This document shows positions 168 through 16,256 of a stretch of 24,279 nucleotides of DNA, one piece after another. Each line of letters starts with the position of its first letter. Position 1 is the first letter of the stretch. Below the pieces are notes generated by a model. The model was not told where the DNA came from. It was given only the letters and a program-made list of their open reading frames with translations, and made no database searches. Source of the DNA: a virus; IMG/VR virus record IMGVR_UViG_3300027749_000474, positions 1 to 24,279 of that record; one strand, given 5' to 3'. A program made the position numbers and the translations under genes.

Positions 168-201
168 ATAAAGCTCCTTAAACGGTACATACCGCACGGC
201 A

Positions 202-218
202 ACTATAACACATAATTA
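202..218 (-). promoter_or_regulatory. Leftward extended -10 promoter of the shared phage motif
   Basis: Read on the minus strand this is TAATTATGTGTTATAGT: a TGn extension and a TATAGT -10 box. It matches four rightward copies of the same motif at 4669, 8059, 11426 and 12071. Seven bases after the -10 box a short hairpin begins (CGGT 194-191, ACCG 186-183), followed by GTTTA and the ribosome site, the same leader order as the 11426 and 12071 copies. Confidence 0.6.
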
Positions 219-378: not shown

Positions 379-579
379 ATGACTCTGACAGAATATTTTT
401 CAACAGAGCCAAGGGGAGCAAAGCTGGAGATGGCCGAGCACCTTGGCATCACACCTACGTGGCTTTCCCTACTGATGAGCGGTAAGAAGCGCGCATCGCC
501 TTTGCTGTGTGTGAGGATTGAAGAGGCAACACAACAGCTAGTTACGAAAAAAGAACTTCGTCCAGATTTGTTTTCGTGA
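379..579 (+). CDS. Cro/YdaS-like helix-turn-helix regulator
   Basis: A 66-residue protein beginning MTLTEYFSTEPRGAKLEMAE. The segment AEHLGITPTWLSLLMSGKK (about residues 19-37) reads as a classic helix-turn-helix, and the ending LRPDLFS fits the Cro/YdaS-like prophage regulator group. Such proteins bind operators between divergent phage promoters and repress or switch early transcription. Its position at the edge of the divergent control region supports that role. The start is chosen for the AAGGA ribosome site just upstream. Its stop codon TGA (577-579) supplies the TG of the extended -10 promoter for the next transcript. No lysogeny genes are seen nearby, so whether the phage is temperate is open. 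Confidence 0.8.
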   Translation: MTLTEYFSTEPRGAKLEMAEHLGITPTWLSLLMSGKKRASPLLCVRIEEATQQLVTKKELRPDLFS

Positions 580-4382: not shown

Positions 4383-4634
4383 CATTTCACACGACCGCTG
4401 TATCGGACGCGCACTGGCGGTAGCGATACAGGGACACCTCTACTACGGGATAGATGTTGAGATAGAGGCATGGGTGGCGAAGATAGCGCCCTAACATCGA
4501 ACGGCTGTCGGGTCATGTGGCTCCAGTTAGCAGAAACATGTGAAGGCTTAGCCCCCTGTGGGAGGGCTGAGTCTGTCCACCAGAAAGCAGTCAAACAGGA
4601 ATTAAGAAAGGCTTAATAAGGTAATAAGGAGTAC
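4383..4634 (+). ncRNA. Structured noncoding stretch between RNA element 2 and a terminator
   Basis: About 250 bases with no convincing gene. It holds several stems: CTGTATCG (4398-4405) with CGATACAG (4424-4431), perfect; CCTCTA (4437-4442) with TAGAGG (4463-4468); CATGT (4514-4518) with ACATG (4536-4540); and GGCTTAGCCC (4545-4554) with 4564-4573, ten pairs including two G-U. It could be the body of a longer RNA of about 370 bases formed by read-through from element 2, ending at the terminator at 4635. I recognise no known RNA family in it and no tRNA fold. Confidence 0.45.
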
Positions 4635-4656
4635 AGGGGGGGTGACCCCTTTTTTT
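4635..4656 (+). terminator. Intrinsic terminator
   Basis: AGGGG (4635-4639) pairs with CCCCT (4646-4650), loop GGGTGA-type, followed by a run of T to 4656. A shifted pairing (GGGG 4639-4642 with CCCC 4646-4649) is also possible. It closes the noncoding RNA stretch and insulates it from the promoter at 4669. Confidence 0.75.
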
Positions 4657-4668
4657 AACTATTACCTG

Positions 4669-4706
4669 TAATTTCCTGTTATAGTCGGATCACCACGATG
4701 TTGTGG
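4669..4706 (+). promoter_or_regulatory. Shared-motif promoter with 5' hairpin, glycosyltransferase-like gene
   Basis: TAATTTCCTGTTATAGT (4669-4685): extended -10 TGTTATAGT with the upstream TAATTT block. Seven bases later CCAC (4693-4696) pairs with GTGG (4703-4706) around the 6-base loop GATGTT, so the transcript should start with this stem-loop. The ribosome site GGGAG follows directly. Confidence 0.65.
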
Positions 4707-4718
4707 GAGCAGAAAGAT

Positions 4719-5735
4719 ATGAAAACTTTAATCATTGAATCGTGTGAGAAAAGAATGACGGCGGATGCGGTTACATCGATCGTTCACGTTAAGAACTCGC
4801 TAATTTTGCGAGATTACCTTGGGTGTGATTTTGTCAGCCACGAGTCTGAGATACCGCAGGCTATGGAGAAGAGCTACGACAAGATTATTTGCGCCTACTC
4901 TTCGCCGTACATGAAGTACAACAAGTACCTCGACATACTCAACAACAACCCCAACGCTGAGATGTACTGGCTGGTCAATGACCACGACATCGAGGACAGC
5001 ATCTTGTTGCGCAAGTGGCTCTTGATGAACCACAAGCAGTACCACATGATTTGCAATAACCCACGCGAAGGCTATCGCGGTTGGATCCTGCGCAAGAAGC
5101 TAAACGGATTGACTTTGAACGACTGGATCAAAGACTGGCACACAGTAAACCTGAACACTCTGGTGTTTGACGAGCAGGCGTTTTACAGTACAGCTACGGT
5201 CGATAAGAGCGACATCATCTATTACGGCACGTTCCGTAAACATAGAATTAAAGATATGCTGAATTACAACGGCGTTAACTACGTACTGAGTTCATCTCTA
5301 AAGAACCACCTGAAGTACAAAGACGCTGGAATACAAGCTCGGTTTATTGAGAAGATTATGTGGACGGAAAAAGAGGCTGACATGTTTGAGCCTATTGGAC
5401 TCAGGCTGAAGGACTACAAGTATTCGATTTACCTAGAGGACGAGCATACCCACACAAACTACGCCTTCATGGCCAATCGATTCTATGAGTGTGTGATGAA
5501 TAACGTCTTGATGTTCTACGACAGTCGTTGCAATTTGGTGATCGAGATGAGCGGCTACGCCATCGATCCATTTCAGGTTGTCAAAGACGGTGAAGAGCTA
5601 AAGCAAAAGATGGAGATGCTGGACTCTGACAAGCAGTCTTATCAGCACTACTTAGGCATTCAGCAGTCAAACGCTGAAATCATCAAGTCTGAAAAGGCTT
5701 ACGTACTTCAAACAATTAAAGGAATATTTCAATGA
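4719..5735 (+). CDS. Putative GT-B glycosyltransferase-like phage protein
   Basis: A 338-residue soluble protein. I chose the ATG at 4719 (MKTLIIESCEKRM) because GGGAG lies 9 bases upstream; an ATG at 4698 sits in the leader hairpin loop. The layout suggests two Rossmann-like halves. The first has KTLIIESC, YDKIICAYSSPYMKYN and AEMYWLVNDHDIED; the second has DIIYYGTFRKHRIKDM, NYVLSSS and a late EDEHTHTNYAFMANRFYE segment, which recalls the donor-binding end of GT-B enzymes. Some phage GT-B enzymes glycosylate modified bases in viral DNA. No catalytic residue can be assigned with certainty and no base-modifying enzyme is in the window, so this is a moderate-confidence fold guess. It has its own promoter after a terminator. 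Confidence 0.6.
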   Translation: MKTLIIESCEKRMTADAVTSIVHVKNSLILRDYLGCDFVSHESEIPQAMEKSYDKIICAYSSPYMKYNKYLDILNNNPNAEMYWLVNDHDIEDSILLRKWLLMNHKQYHMICNNPREGYRGWILRKKLNGLTLNDWIKDWHTVNLNTLVFDEQAFYSTATVDKSDIIYYGTFRKHRIKDMLNYNGVNYVLSSSLKNHLKYKDAGIQARFIEKIMWTEKEADMFEPIGLRLKDYKYSIYLEDEHTHTNYAFMANRFYECVMNNVLMFYDSRCNLVIEMSGYAIDPFQVVKDGEELKQKMEMLDSDKQSYQHYLGIQQSNAEIIKSEKAYVLQTIKGIFQ

Positions 5736-7716: not shown

Positions 7717-7981
7717 CAGCATGACTGCTAAGGAGCGCGCATACGTGGGCTTGGTGAAACTTATGCCCTGCTCCGTATGCGATGCCTCTGGCCCAAGCGA
7801 TGCACACCACGTAAAACAGCATAGGCAATACACAGTTGTTGCCCTGTGCAAGTCCTGCCACCAAGGCTCAAAGATGGGCTGGCATGGTGAGAAGCGTGCA
7901 TGGGCTATTGCAAAGATGGACGAATTGGATGCCCTCAATAAAACAATTGAGAACGTCATTCATTACATAAACCAAAACTGA
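7709..7981 (+). CDS. Ref-like HNH-type recombination nuclease
   Basis: A 90-residue protein resembling Ref (recombination enhancement function), a RecA-dependent nuclease family of phage P1. Features: CSVCDASGPSDAHHVKQ (C21, C24, H33, H34) and ALCKSCHQGSKMGWHGEKRA (C47, C50, H51), a zinc-bound HNH-like fold, then MDELDALNKTIE at the end. In phages these proteins are thought to cut DNA at recombination intermediates. Neighbouring RuvC-like resolvase fits a recombination module. It is the last gene of the operon that begins at 4719. Confidence 0.75.
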   Translation: MNNSMTAKERAYVGLVKLMPCSVCDASGPSDAHHVKQHRQYTVVALCKSCHQGSKMGWHGEKRAWAIAKMDELDALNKTIENVIHYINQN

Positions 7982-8123
7982 AAACACAAGTATACAAACT
8001 AAGGGTGCGTATTAGGGTTTTCCTTAGAAAAATAGTCTGTTTAGGGTGTTTCAAACTCTAATTTCCTGTTAACATTCCTTTACCGCAACAGAAAGCGGGT
8101 TCATCAACTTAAAGGAAATTATC
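7982..8123 (+). promoter_or_regulatory. Intergenic region with shared-motif promoter and 5' hairpin
   Basis: No gene. CTAAGG (from about 7999) and CCTTAG (about 8022) can pair across a large loop, a weak terminator candidate for the preceding operon. TAATTTCCTGTTAACAT at 8059-8075 is the fourth rightward copy of the phage promoter motif, with a weaker -10 (TAACAT). Seven bases on, CCGC (8083-8086) pairs with GCGG (8095-8098). The ribosome site AAAGGAA precedes the next ATG at 8124. Confidence 0.55.
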
Positions 8124-8414
8124 ATGACAGTATCCACAGCACTCAAGGTCGTAGACCAACTCGGTTTAATCCAAGACCAGATCGAAGCATTGACAGAGCA
8201 AGCAGAGTCTTTAAAAGACCAAATCAAATTGCTCGGTGCAGGCACCTACGCTGGCACTATGTACGTCACCATCGTCAAGCACACTCCAGAAAAGAAAAGC
8301 ACAGCATGGTCTGCTGTAGCTAAGGAGTTGAATGCTCCTGCTGACTTGGTTGCTAAGCACACCAAGATCACCAAAGACATCATGTCTGCCACCACCGAAG
8401 CCTTGTCTAACTAA
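8124..8414 (+). CDS. Small phage protein with N-terminal coiled coil
   Basis: A 96-residue protein: residues 1-36 form a clear heptad-like helix (VVDQLGLIQDQIEALTEQ), followed by a short beta-like part (GTYAGTMYVTIVKHTPEKKS) and a helical tail with DLVAKHTKITKDIMS. The pattern resembles small phage proteins of unknown role that assemble through their N-terminal helix. It has its own promoter at 8059 and an AAAGGAAATTATC ribosome region. It is the first gene of the small-gene region. Confidence 0.8.
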   Translation: MTVSTALKVVDQLGLIQDQIEALTEQAESLKDQIKLLGAGTYAGTMYVTIVKHTPEKKSTAWSAVAKELNAPADLVAKHTKITKDIMSATTEALSN

Positions 8415-11301: not shown

Positions 11302-11403
11302 ATGCTAGAGACAGTTGCTTGGGTTGTACTACTCTTGTGTTCAGGATTTGTGATATTTGCACTGGTGGCAGTGGTCATGCTGATGATGGATCAGGATGAT
11401 TAG
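11302..11403 (+). CDS. 33-residue single-span membrane microprotein
   Basis: A short frame with a near-perfect ribosome site (AGGAGGA) 5 bases upstream. It codes MLETVAWVVLLLCSGFVIFA, a continuous hydrophobic stretch to VVMLMM, and the acidic tail DQDD. This looks like a single membrane helix with acidic cytoplasmic or periplasmic end. Its strong ribosome site argues that it is expressed. It is the last gene before the promoter at 11426. Confidence 0.65.
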   Translation: MLETVAWVVLLLCSGFVIFALVAVVMLMMDQDD

Positions 11404-11425
11404 TGAAAACACCTAGTAAATAATC

Positions 11426-11471
11426 TAATTTTCTGTTATAGTTCCTATCACTGCAATGACGCAGGTTTAGG
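11426..11471 (+). promoter_or_regulatory. Shared-motif promoter with 5' hairpin and SD pairing
   Basis: TAATTTTCTGTTATAGT (11426-11442), extended -10. Eight bases on, CTGC (11451-11454) pairs with GCAG (11461-11464) around the 6-base loop AATGAC. CCTA (11444-11447) can also pair with TAGG (11468-11471), part of the ribosome site TAGGAG, so translation of the 11480 gene may be tuned. The 21-base leader core is 19/21 identical to that at 12094. Confidence 0.65.
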
Positions 11472-11479
11472 AGAATCAA

Positions 11480-12073
11480 ATGGCAACAAACTTTTCACCC
11501 ATCATTGAAAATCCAGTAGCTTATGAGAATGCCGTCAAAAGCTACATCATTGGTAACGCACAAAAAACATGGCGTGCTAAAACTGAGCGTGCTAGTGAGA
11601 TTGAAAGCGCTTTGGTAGTTGGTATGCTTCACAACGATCGTGGCGGATTCAGAGGCTATACCGACGACTTCATGGGTTCCATGGCTCAAGCCTTCTACAC
11701 TTATGGCAAGCTGTCCCCTAAGCAGTGCGAAGCCATCCTAAAGGGCATAGACGCCCGTGCCGCACGCAAAGCAGAATGGGCTGACAAGAAGGCCGCTATC
11801 GACGCTACACGCGACTTCGTAGGCACCGTAGGCGAAAAGATCACCCTTACCCTCAAAGTCGTTCACATTGTCGAACTGGACGGTAGCTTTGGCACCGTGT
11901 ACATCAACATCTGCGAAGACGCAAACAACAACACGATCATCTACAAAGGCAACGCCAAGGGCTTCCCAGAGAAGGGCGAGACTGCCACCATCACAGCTAC
12001 CGTAAAAGAGCACGGTGTACGTAACGGCGTCAAGCAAACCGTTATCCAGCGCCCCAAGCTTGCAACACTCTAA
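11480..12073 (+). CDS. Phage protein with C-terminal OB-fold-like domain
   Basis: A 197-residue protein. The N-terminal half (residues 1-100) is helical and contains YTYGKLSPKQCEAILKGIDA. The C-terminal half (about 110-197) alternates beta strands: VGTVGEKITLTLKVVHIVEL, DGSFGTVYINICED, GNAKGFPEKGETATITATVK, then EHGVRNGVKQTVIQRPK. The ending is like OB-fold domains of phage and plasmid nucleic-acid-binding proteins, so single-stranded DNA or RNA binding is plausible but unproven. It has its own strong promoter at 11426 and ribosome site TAGGAG, and is probably well expressed. Its stop lies inside the next promoter motif. Confidence 0.75.
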   Translation: MATNFSPIIENPVAYENAVKSYIIGNAQKTWRAKTERASEIESALVVGMLHNDRGGFRGYTDDFMGSMAQAFYTYGKLSPKQCEAILKGIDARAARKAEWADKKAAIDATRDFVGTVGEKITLTLKVVHIVELDGSFGTVYINICEDANNNTIIYKGNAKGFPEKGETATITATVKEHGVRNGVKQTVIQRPKLATL

Positions 12074-12108
12074 TTTTCTGTTATACTGTCATTACTGCAA
12101 TCAAGCAG
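12071..12108 (+). promoter_or_regulatory. Shared-motif promoter with 5' hairpin
   Basis: TAATTTTCTGTTATACT (12071-12087), overlapping the stop of the OB-like gene. Seven bases later CTGC (12095-12098) pairs with GCAG (12105-12108) around AATCAA. The stem and flanks match the 11426 copy; only the loop differs (GAC versus CAA). GTTTAG follows, then the ribosome site AAAGGA. Confidence 0.65.
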
Positions 12109-12127: not shown

Positions 12128-12772
12128 ATGCAATCATCAACACAACTCCGCGGTAACTGCCAATGCTGTGGTAACTGCCAATGCTGTGGCCGCCAGCAGG
12201 CCGTAGTAGGTAGATGGATGGCCAAGCACGGCTACACAGTCGAGCACGGTTGGTTCCAAGGCGCCTGCTCTGGCGAGTCTAGTGAGCCTATGCAAAAGAG
12301 CCGCACACGCACAGACGGCATCGTGGCTCAAGTCCGCGCTGATGTAGCTAAGCTGTTAGAGCAAAAGAACAAGCTCGAAGCAGGCACAGCTAAGCCAGAG
12401 TTCATCAACCGCGGTACAGAGCGCAAGCCTGACCTAATCCCATTTGCTGAAGGCGATGAGTATCAGCAACGCATGACCACCAGAAAAGTCATTCACGAGA
12501 TGACATTTAAAGCTAGCATGGGCGCCCAGTTCGCTGACATGCTGGTAGAAGTGGCCGACAAGTACCACGGCACACCATTGATCGAGGTAGAGAAAAAAGA
12601 GCCACCAACACCCATCTATCGCGGCGATAAGAAGATATCCCAGAACAAGAGCTACACATACGAATGCAGACGCGTAGAAGGTGGCCGTGTGTACTACGTG
12701 CTAGACAAGAACGGCGCTAGCCTCAATGGATGGATCGGTACACAAGCTTGGCGCAAGCTAGAGAACGCATAA
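12128..12772 (+). CDS. Phage protein with duplicated cysteine knuckle
   Basis: A 214-residue protein. Near the N-terminus GNCQCCGNCQCCGRQQAVV holds two copies of the CQCCGN unit, then GWFQGACSG: an apparent zinc-binding domain. The duplication comes from an exact 18-base tandem repeat (12152-12187), likely a recent slippage. The middle is a coiled-coil-like helix (IVAQVRADVAKLLEQKNKLE), and the C-terminal part is beta-rich (YECRRVEGGRVYYVLDKNG). No catalytic motif. It has its own promoter at 12071 and is the last gene before the GC-rich hairpin at 12778. Confidence 0.75.
   Translation: MQSSTQLRGNCQCCGNCQCCGRQQAVVGRWMAKHGYTVEHGWFQGACSGESSEPMQKSRTRTDGIVAQVRADVAKLLEQKNKLEAGTAKPEFINRGTERKPDLIPFAEGDEYQQRMTTRKVIHEMTFKASMGAQFADMLVEVADKYHGTPLIEVEKKEPPTPIYRGDKKISQNKSYTYECRRVEGGRVYYVLDKNGASLNGWIGTQAWRKLENA
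12152..12187 (+). repeat. 18-bp in-frame tandem repeat
   Basis: GGTAACTGCCAATGCTGT occurs twice without a spacer (12152-12169 and 12170-12187). It adds one CCGNCQ-type unit to the cysteine knuckle of the 12128 gene. Identity of both copies points to a recent duplication. Confidence 0.9.
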
Positions 12773-14721: not shown

Positions 14722-16148
14722 GCGCCTTAGACGAGATCCTCTCCGACCCCGCGGTCATTGAGGAGTTTGCTCTTAGGACGCCTATCGAGCAGACTGTCAT
14801 CAACTGGCAGTTGAAGTGGCTGAGCACACAGGCACACAAGCATCAGATAGAGCCTAACGGTGATTGGTGGAGCATATGGCTAATGCTGGCTGGCCGTGGT
14901 GCTGGTAAGACTAGAGCGGCGGCAGAGACGCTAGCATGGTGGGCATGGGAGCAACCTAATACCAGATGGCTTGTATCAGCGCCTACTAGCGGAGACGTGA
15001 AGGGCACCTGCTTCGAGGGTGACTCTGGACTGCTCAACGTCATACCAAAGGAACTGGTAGCCGACTACAACAAAGCACTGCACGAGATCAGGCTTATCAA
15101 TGGATCGTTTATCAAAGGCATACCAGCGTCGGAGCCAGAGCGCTTCCGCGGTCCGCAGTTCCACGGTGGATGGCTAGACGAGCTTGCGGCTTGGGACTAC
15201 CTGCAAGAGTCGTGGGACATGATCCAGTTCGGTATACGTCTGGGCAACCGTACTAAGCTCATATGCTCGACCACGCCTAAGCCAAAGGACGTGGTGCTCG
15301 ACCTGATAGGACGTGAGGGTGACGACGTGACTATCACGCGCGCCAGCACGTACAGCAACATCAAGAACCTAGCTCCATCGTTCCAGAAGCAGATCTTGCA
15401 GTACGAGGGCACCAACCTAGGCCGTCAGGAGATCCATGCGGAGATCATCGACCCTGAAGAGGGTGGCATAGTCAAGCGTGATTGGTTCCGCCTGTGGCCA
15501 GATGGCAAGCCCTTCCCCAAGCTGGAGTACATCATCCAGTCCTATGACTGCGCGACCAGCGACAAGACCATCAACGACCCTACAGGATGCATCACACTGG
15601 GTGCATTCAAGCCATTGGATGGTGGCATGTGCGTGCTGGTGCTGGACTGCTGGCAGGAGCACCTACAGTATCCTGACCTACGCCCCAAAGTGATCGAGGA
15701 GTTCGAGGTGTTCTATGGCGATGGACGTGAGAAGAAACGCGTTGACCTATTGCTGGTGGAAGATAAGAGCGCTGGCATAAGTCTTATACAAGACTTGCAA
15801 CGTGCGCACCTACCCGTGATGCCCTATAACCCCGGTCGCGCTGACAAGACGCAAAGGCTCAGCATCGTGGCCAACATCATTAAAGCTGGCCGTGTTTGGG
15901 TGCCAGAGCACAGCCAACGCAAAGGCTACGTGAGGGACTGGGCTGAAGGCATGGTGAGCCAGATCTGCTCCTTCCCTGAGACAGTACACGACGAGTTTGT
16001 AGACTGCATCAGTCAGGGCTTACGGTACATGAGGGATGCTGGATGGATCAGCATTGATGTGGCACCGCGTGATGACTACGACGATGATGACATCTTCGAC
16101 GCTGAGGAGTACAACAAGCGTAAGAAGGGCAACCCATATGCTGAGTAG
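14718..16148 (+). CDS. terL: Terminase large subunit
   Basis: A 476-residue DNA-packaging motor. The ATPase has Walker A AGRGAGKT (58-65), Walker B GWLDEL (151-156) and the coupling STTPKP (184-189). The nuclease has an RNase H-like acidic triad: SYDCAT (D277), LVEDKS (E348) and TVHDEFVD (D425 or D429). It cuts concatemers and pumps DNA into the prohead with energy from ATP, docking on the portal encoded at 21035. Length and motifs fit phages with headful or cohesive-end packaging; I cannot tell which. It starts by ATGA overlap, and its TAG stop lies in the palindrome repeat. Confidence 0.93.
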   Translation: MSALDEILSDPAVIEEFALRTPIEQTVINWQLKWLSTQAHKHQIEPNGDWWSIWLMLAGRGAGKTRAAAETLAWWAWEQPNTRWLVSAPTSGDVKGTCFEGDSGLLNVIPKELVADYNKALHEIRLINGSFIKGIPASEPERFRGPQFHGGWLDELAAWDYLQESWDMIQFGIRLGNRTKLICSTTPKPKDVVLDLIGREGDDVTITRASTYSNIKNLAPSFQKQILQYEGTNLGRQEIHAEIIDPEEGGIVKRDWFRLWPDGKPFPKLEYIIQSYDCATSDKTINDPTGCITLGAFKPLDGGMCVLVLDCWQEHLQYPDLRPKVIEEFEVFYGDGREKKRVDLLLVEDKSAGISLIQDLQRAHLPVMPYNPGRADKTQRLSIVANIIKAGRVWVPEHSQRKGYVRDWAEGMVSQICSFPETVHDEFVDCISQGLRYMRDAGWISIDVAPRDDYDDDDIFDAEEYNKRKKGNPYAE

Positions 16149-16202
16149 GGGTGAACCCAGTTCGCGGCACAACAATTAGGGATGAACCCAGTTCACCCCT
16201 AG
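16146..16202. repeat. Two imperfect copies of the ParB-gene palindrome
   Basis: Copy A has arms GGGGTGAAC (16148-16156) and GTTCGCGGC (16160-16168) around CCA. Copy B has GGGATGAAC (16179-16187) and GTTCACCCC (16191-16199) around CCA. The outer bases TAGGGGTGAAC (16146-16156) and GTTCACCCCTA (16191-16201) also form an 11-bp inverted repeat that could make a long hairpin after TerL. Copy B matches the 1020-1040 sequence exactly over 21 bases in reverse complement. The TerL stop codon lies within copy A. Confidence 0.75.
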
Positions 16203-16256
16203 ACTTGACATAGTTGCAAAGGCATAATCGATGCATCCCACAATGAAGGAATAGCC

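Follow-up and report, generated by a model that had tools for sequence, protein, structure and literature searches.

Stabilising stems at the 5′ end of mRNA are known from single genes, and the ompA and papA stem-loops of Escherichia coli belong to single host genes with longer leaders. Among phages, the N4 virion RNA polymerase uses promoters with a DNA hairpin that precedes the start and is recognised by its sequence. Stems of the ompA/papA type are reported to prolong mRNA life by hindering 5′-end-dependent decay (Emory 1992; Bouvet 1992; Arnold 1998; Bricker 1999; all as cited in an excerpt of PMC3997798). In the filamentous phage SW1, the 5′ UTR was shown to affect RNA stability (excerpt of PMC4762005). 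The Pseudomonas phages YuA, LKO4 and PAE1 contain 28-bp promoter repeats annotated as 'putative sigma70 promoter requiring phage-encoded cofactor'.

Our results describe a promoter-hairpin module in viral record IMGVR_UViG_3300027749_000474 of IMG/VR, of which positions 1 to 24,279 (24,279 nucleotides, hereafter the window) were analysed, and in its relatives. The module would resemble the ompA/papA stem-loops in that its stem is predicted to lie at the extreme 5′ end of the mRNA, and here too structure matters whereas sequence does not, as is apparent from compensatory changes and variable loops. In contrast to ompA and papA, however, it is a short stem at a fixed offset on a recurrent phage promoter, found in several operons and many phages. 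With N4 it shares the association of a hairpin with phage promoters, but its stem follows the -10 box instead of preceding the start, its loop is variable and its sequence is free. The SW1 UTRs, as far as the excerpt describes them, are exceptionally long, whereas our modules consist of a minimal terminal stem. The YuA repeats are likewise a repeated phage promoter, but they have another upstream sequence, and three of the five annotated copies (10500, 22639 and 31098) have no stem, while those at 7722 (with a 12-nt loop) and 29058 do. In the open-licence literature, we found no maps of YuA 5′ ends and recognised no described phage promoter-hairpin module. The principle that terminal stems stabilise mRNA is known; what is new, as far as the literature was searched, is that a phage group has such a stem as a regular component of its promoters.

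The earlier note had reported five copies of one promoter motif in the window, each followed by a hairpin, with spacings of 7, 7, 7, 8 and 7 nt between -10 box and stem. All five motifs, spacings and stems lie where it had placed them:

183..195, minus strand: predicted +1 G (195), stem CGGT/ACCG (194-191/186-183), loop ATGT
202..218, minus strand: promoter motif TAATTATGTGTTATAGT, with TATAGT as -10 box
4669..4685, plus strand: promoter motif TAATTTCCTGTTATAGT, with the -10 box at 4680-4685
4692..4706, plus strand: predicted +1 A (4692), stem CCAC/GTGG (4693-4696/4703-4706), loop GATGTT
8059..8075, plus strand: promoter motif TAATTTCCTGTTAACAT, the weakest of the five copies
8082..8098, plus strand: predicted +1 A (8082), stem CCGC/GCGG, loop AACAGAAA
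11426..11442, plus strand: promoter motif TAATTTTCTGTTATAGT
11450..11464, plus strand: predicted +1 A (11450), stem CTGC/GCAG, loop AATGAC
12071..12087, plus strand: promoter motif TAATTTTCTGTTATACT
12094..12108, plus strand: predicted +1 A (12094), stem CTGC/GCAG, loop AATCAA

With up to two mismatches, the motif TAATTNNNTGTTATANT matches five times in the window; 100 shuffles gave a mean of 0.46 and a maximum of 3 matches, and none gave five. The copy at 8059 has two mismatches and a weak -10 box (TAACAT). A mechanical rule (GTTANNNT, a YR step, a C-initiated 4-bp stem and an RBS with ORF) returned exactly the five modules, and none when the stem was shifted by 10 nt. From +1 to +28, the window leaders have predicted folding energies of -4.7 to -6.7 kcal/mol, four pairs making a modest stem. 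Over positions +2 to +5, predicted pairing averages 0.88, compared to 0.37 in shuffles. No Rfam family was found at the five hairpins, even at E-values up to 5. In the 4669 unit, the ATG at 4698 falls inside the hairpin, and the likelier start codon is the one at 4719, about 10 nt past GGGAG. Just 5′ of this promoter, at 4636-4656, a GGGG-TGA-CCCC hairpin with a T-run resembles a terminator-like unit boundary, similar to what is seen in L062 and L084. Shortly upstream, the window also contains the Rfam RNA RF02932 'Betaproteobacteria-1' (4396-4513, plus strand; 103 bits against a gathering threshold of 49). It recurs in related phages (L053, 2267-2384; L095, 5829-5946, minus strand), and this sRNA family may be carried by phages.

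The module is real, conserved and widespread. Sites were drawn from relatives of the gene at 11480 and from scans with four promoter-only patterns, chosen blind to the hairpin, and an ORF start was required 12-90 nt downstream for sites counted as having an ORF. Among the matches listed for the four patterns, a stem at offset 6-8 was present in 10/13, 16/33, 31/54 and 36/50 sites with an ORF (shuffle means 0.5, 0.9, 1.9 and 1.8) and in 0/16, 2/79, 1/71 and 4/41 sites without one. A wider set, defined by TAAYTNNNNGTTANNNT plus RBS and ORF, comprised 175 distinct sites among the matches listed, of which 142 have a Watson-Crick stem 6-8 nt past the -10 box (146 if G-U pairs are allowed); other offsets gave 2-9 stems, and shuffles a mean of 6.8 and a maximum of 14. 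These sites are related rather than independent, and were deduplicated by sequence, not by contig. According to the earlier note, relatives that keep the -10 motif should keep the pairing as well. As a rule they do: without the loci fetched by hairpin-bearing patterns, 117 of 148 sites among the matches listed have a perfect stem at 6-8 nt (121 with G-U). The expectation fails in part for L225 (compared to L300), for the three promoters of the MDQLEEF gene and for the three stemless YuA repeats.

The stem is strictly positioned relative to the promoter. Among the matches listed, the offset from the -10 box is 7 nt in 103, 8 nt in 31 and 6 nt in 8 of the 142 stem sites (sd 0.50 nt), while the distance from stem to start codon has an sd of 6.9 nt. 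This bears out the proposal that promoter and stem form one module, in which the stem keeps a fixed distance to the expected start site but not to the start codon. A pyrimidine-purine step, the usual start position of sigma70 polymerase, precedes the stem in 132 of these 142 sites (CA 101, TA 21, TG 8, CG 2, among the matches listed), and the stem is conserved from the predicted +2. Because a purine after a pyrimidine precedes the stem at the canonical start position, the predicted RNA would begin with pppA (or pppG) and enter the stem at once. The base after the stem is G facing +1 A in 122, T facing +1 G in 10 and T facing +1 A in 3 of the 142 sites; put differently, G follows the stem in 122 and T in 3 of the 125 sites with +1 A, and T in 10 of the 11 with +1 G (all among the matches listed). 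In the window, T182 next to the minus-strand stem could likewise form a G-U pair with the +1 G. Since +1 A mostly faces G, the +1 base is at most weakly paired, and it could form a standard pair in only 16 of 66 aligned leaders. That A facing G is preferred over an A-U pair is not explained by simple sealing of the end.

The position, diversity, compensatory pairing and register of the stem are direct observations. We consider it probable that the module is a sigma70-type promoter fused to a 5′-terminal stem-loop that would shield phage mRNA from decay by RppH and RNase E, where we infer the start site, the opposing enzymes and the effect on half-life. The predicted start is the purine that follows the -10 box by 7, sometimes 8, nt; the stem would open with a C-G pair at +2, so that no more than one 5′ base would remain unpaired. 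RppH requires at least two unpaired 5′ nucleotides, according to excerpts on the E. coli (PMC10667835) and Bacillus (PMC3997798) enzymes; the phage hosts here are uncultured and their own RppH may differ. RNase E favours 5′-monophosphate ends (excerpt of PMC10667835). Because a single free base precedes a C-G-closed stem, the transcript should resist both enzymes: such an end would be a poor RppH substrate, the 5′-monophosphate-dependent route of RNase E would be hard to enter, and phage operon mRNAs with a terminal stem would live longer. This shielding is the best-supported reading, and roles in translation, protein binding or at the DNA level are less likely.

An alternative explanation might be that the hairpin raises translation, by keeping the leader open or positioning the ribosome as a standby site or insulator. 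A purine-rich SD, after which GGTTTA is common, does lie shortly downstream of the stem, and in four of the five window leaders the stem does not pair with it. Yet the stem is in register with the -10 box (sd 0.50) rather than the start codon (sd 6.9), and there is nothing upstream of the stem to insulate, which makes this explanation unlikely. A terminator was ruled out because no T-run follows the stems, and an SD-occluding switch because SD pairing is absent except near the minus-strand start.

In line with the earlier note, which had seen different stem bases with pairing kept, the changes are compensatory, and this extends across the leaders of orthologous genes. Core stems include CTGC, CCGC, CGCC, CCAC, CGAC, CGATCA, CGGC, CGGT, CGGTC(A), CGTTC(A), CGTCG and CGCCG, CTGC being the commonest (58/142 among the matches listed). 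In the orthologue group of the gene at 8124, downstream of the 8059 promoter, CCGC is replaced by CGGTC(A) or CTGC with pairing kept (leaders orthologous to the 8059 unit carry CGGTC or CTGC), and that of the minus-strand gene has CGATCA, CGGC, CGGT, CGGTC or CGTTC(A), again paired. Similarly, L058 has CGCCG-ATA-CGGCG where L155 has CGTCG-ATA-CGACG. With stems this diverse and the pairing nevertheless intact, even in front of orthologous genes, selection evidently acts on stem structure and not on sequence. This is further supported by a structure-blind test, in which the arm was taken as the 4 nt after YR at the expected start without looking for pairing; 19 of the 148 sites lacked YR there and were dropped, and deduplication reduced the remaining 129 to 101 (among the matches listed). 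The arm's own complement was present in 85 of the 101 distinct leaders, compared to 96 of 7928 (1.2%) for the different arm of another site, among the matches listed. When 68 leaders, among them some that do not pair, were aligned with MAFFT (24 of 92, the CTGC leaders beyond the twelfth, were dropped first), 82.0% of stem cells were paired versus 59.3% after shuffling, double-sided changes numbered 77 versus 25.3, and the covariation score was 0.597 versus 0.227, or 0.07-0.16 when slid. RNAalifold recovered three of the four stem pairs unprompted.

Another possibility is that a phage or host RNA-binding protein recognises the hairpin and controls these operons together. Such a site could account for the preferred CA before the stem, the G after it and the loops, which often begin with AA. 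However, loop sequence, loop length (3-10 nt) and three of the four stem pairs are free to vary, and we regard a protein site as quite improbable. A sequence-specific operator at the hairpin was ruled out, as the stem sequences vary.

The promoter itself shows features of regulation. The -10 hexamers (TATAGT, TATACT, TAGAAT, TAAGAT and similar) fit TANNNT, which is itself part of the search rule. A sigma70 -35 element (TTGACA at ~17 bp) is generally lacking: among the matches listed, 29 of the 146 stem sites agree in at least 5/6 bases with a 19-bp spacer and 7 with a 16-bp spacer, the majority show no such agreement, and some have an upstream box instead. The 17-mer motif is longer than a -10 box needs, and includes the dyad TAAY-N5-GTTA, as TAAC..GTTA in 64 and as TAAT..GTTA in 111 of the 175 sites among the matches listed, where GTTA and Y are fixed by the search rule. 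The promoter is probably regulated through this dyad. Candidate regulatory features in the window are:

379..579, plus strand: YdaS-like HTH protein (PF15943), encoded divergently to the minus-strand module
8013..8026, plus strand: TAGGG..CCTTA box, with its centre near -62 relative to the predicted 8059-unit start
11401..11415, plus strand: TAGTGAAAACACCTA box, centred at about -40.5 of the 11426 unit

The YdaS-like HTH protein is a candidate regulator of the dyad, putatively a repressor. Among the loci examined, its relatives have 45 distinct upstream sequences, and in seven of these TAAY-N5-GTTA lies 29-43 nt ahead of the start codon; the gene in the window has no such dyad at that distance. 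Between this gene and the minus-strand module, at 240-252, lies a TAAC-N5-GTTG half-match. In 53 of the 175 sites among the matches listed, a palindromic box of the TAGGG-N-CCTA type lies no more than 61 nt upstream. These boxes, which resemble LuxR/NarL-type activator sites, cluster near -40, -44, -52, -56, -62 and -66. Their spacing suggests sites of an activator that would act from helix-phased positions.

These features raise the question whether the stem is a DNA-level element as well, i.e., an operator dyad, an N4-type hairpin promoter or a promoter part that a phage factor recognises. Its tight spacing to the -10 box, the 17-mer's own dyad and the nearby HTH gene would fit. But only complementarity is conserved and not the stem sequence, promoters of the same class exist without a stem, and the stem comes after the predicted start, not before it as in N4; a DNA-level role is therefore very unlikely. 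Common descent from a few leaders whose stems arose by chance, for which the relatedness of many sites and the dominance of CTGC (58/142) might speak, is hardly credible, as stem-bearing promoters occur in 46 of 65 protein groups (both counts among the matches listed), stems are swapped between orthologues with pairing kept, and the structure-blind complement test and covariation contradict it.

Returning to shielding, we give an even chance to the wider view that a large, mostly betaproteobacterial phage group uses a 5′-terminal hairpin as a standard promoter part, a structure-only RNA 'cap' at +2 of several early/middle operons kept by compensatory evolution. If true, 5′-end-dependent decay would be a strong selective pressure on phage mRNA. 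A stem that belongs to a recurrent promoter, keeps strict register and covaries strongly across tens of gene families would offer a natural experiment on the number of unpaired 5′ bases that the decay machinery can tolerate. A review of T4 lists the role of RppH in phage infection as not yet investigated (excerpt of PMC3014915); phages of the window type, together with the cultured YuA and PAE1, make it testable.

The carriers of the module are a family of freshwater bacterial viruses. The window phage is tailed, with ParB-like, helicase, primase, RuvC-like, terminase and portal genes. Of the named relatives found, the closest is MW202545, a metagenomic phage of 57 kb (terminase 81.6%). Whole-window megablast against phages gave no match, and blastn with 60 nt of one module gave only MW202545 and two weak microvirus matches. 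The bacterial genome collection yielded two matches, on contigs in Burkholderiales/Betaproteobacteria MAGs; L453 is probably itself phage DNA, because one of its ORFs resembles the window terminase by eye. The mechanical rule found 5 modules in the window, 4 each in G003, G012, G023 and MW202545, 2 in G001 and 0 in YuA (1-45000), although it misses offset-6 stems and the YuA motif differs from its own; with the stem shifted by 10 nt, these genomes had none. The cultured phages PAE1, YuA and LKO4 have a homologue of the gene at 12128 (YuA gp42/PAE1 orf81), with a leader of TATACT, 6 nt, A, CGTTC-AACAA-GAACG and G. Upstream of its homologues, we saw no promoter or stem in Xanthomonas phage XcP1 and a 3-bp stem only in Acidovorax phage ACP17.

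To call the device phage-wide, as the earlier note did, was too strong. Near-complete genomes have about four modules each, none was seen upstream of structural genes in the window, G003, G012, G001, G023, MW202545 or YuA records, and some promoters with the same motif are stemless. A general 5′-hairpin habit of all promoters in these phages was ruled out: scans without the GTTA context gave 0-2 extra matches per genome, about the shifted-stem background.

Even with G-U pairs allowed, 29 of the 175 sites have no stem, among the matches listed. Some are chance matches in other phages, whereas L225, L266, L309, L068 and the MDQLEEF group lie in leaders of the family. L225 has no hairpin while the otherwise near-identical L300 has one, and has evidently lost it. 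Also stemless are L266, L309 and L483 (MRLLTEEE group), 3/3 MDQLEEF and 3/3 MNFTEAV promoters, and both YdaS-gene promoters. The stem is therefore separable from the promoter. Among the matches listed, the start codon lies within 28 nt of the -10 box in 15 of the 29 stemless sites versus 7 of the 146 stem sites; these shorter leaders may lack room for a stem, or the initiating ribosome may cover their 5′ end.

Five leaders of one gene (L364, L340, L356, L370 and L397) have a second short hairpin of the GTCC-TACG-GGAC type, with a UNCG-like loop, between the 5′ hairpin and the RBS. The window also contains palindrome repeats of the GGGGTGAAC..GTTC type, at ~1023-1045 inside the ParB-like gene and at 16148-16165 and 16184-16204 in the gap after the terminase gene, which are possible ParB or nuclease sites.
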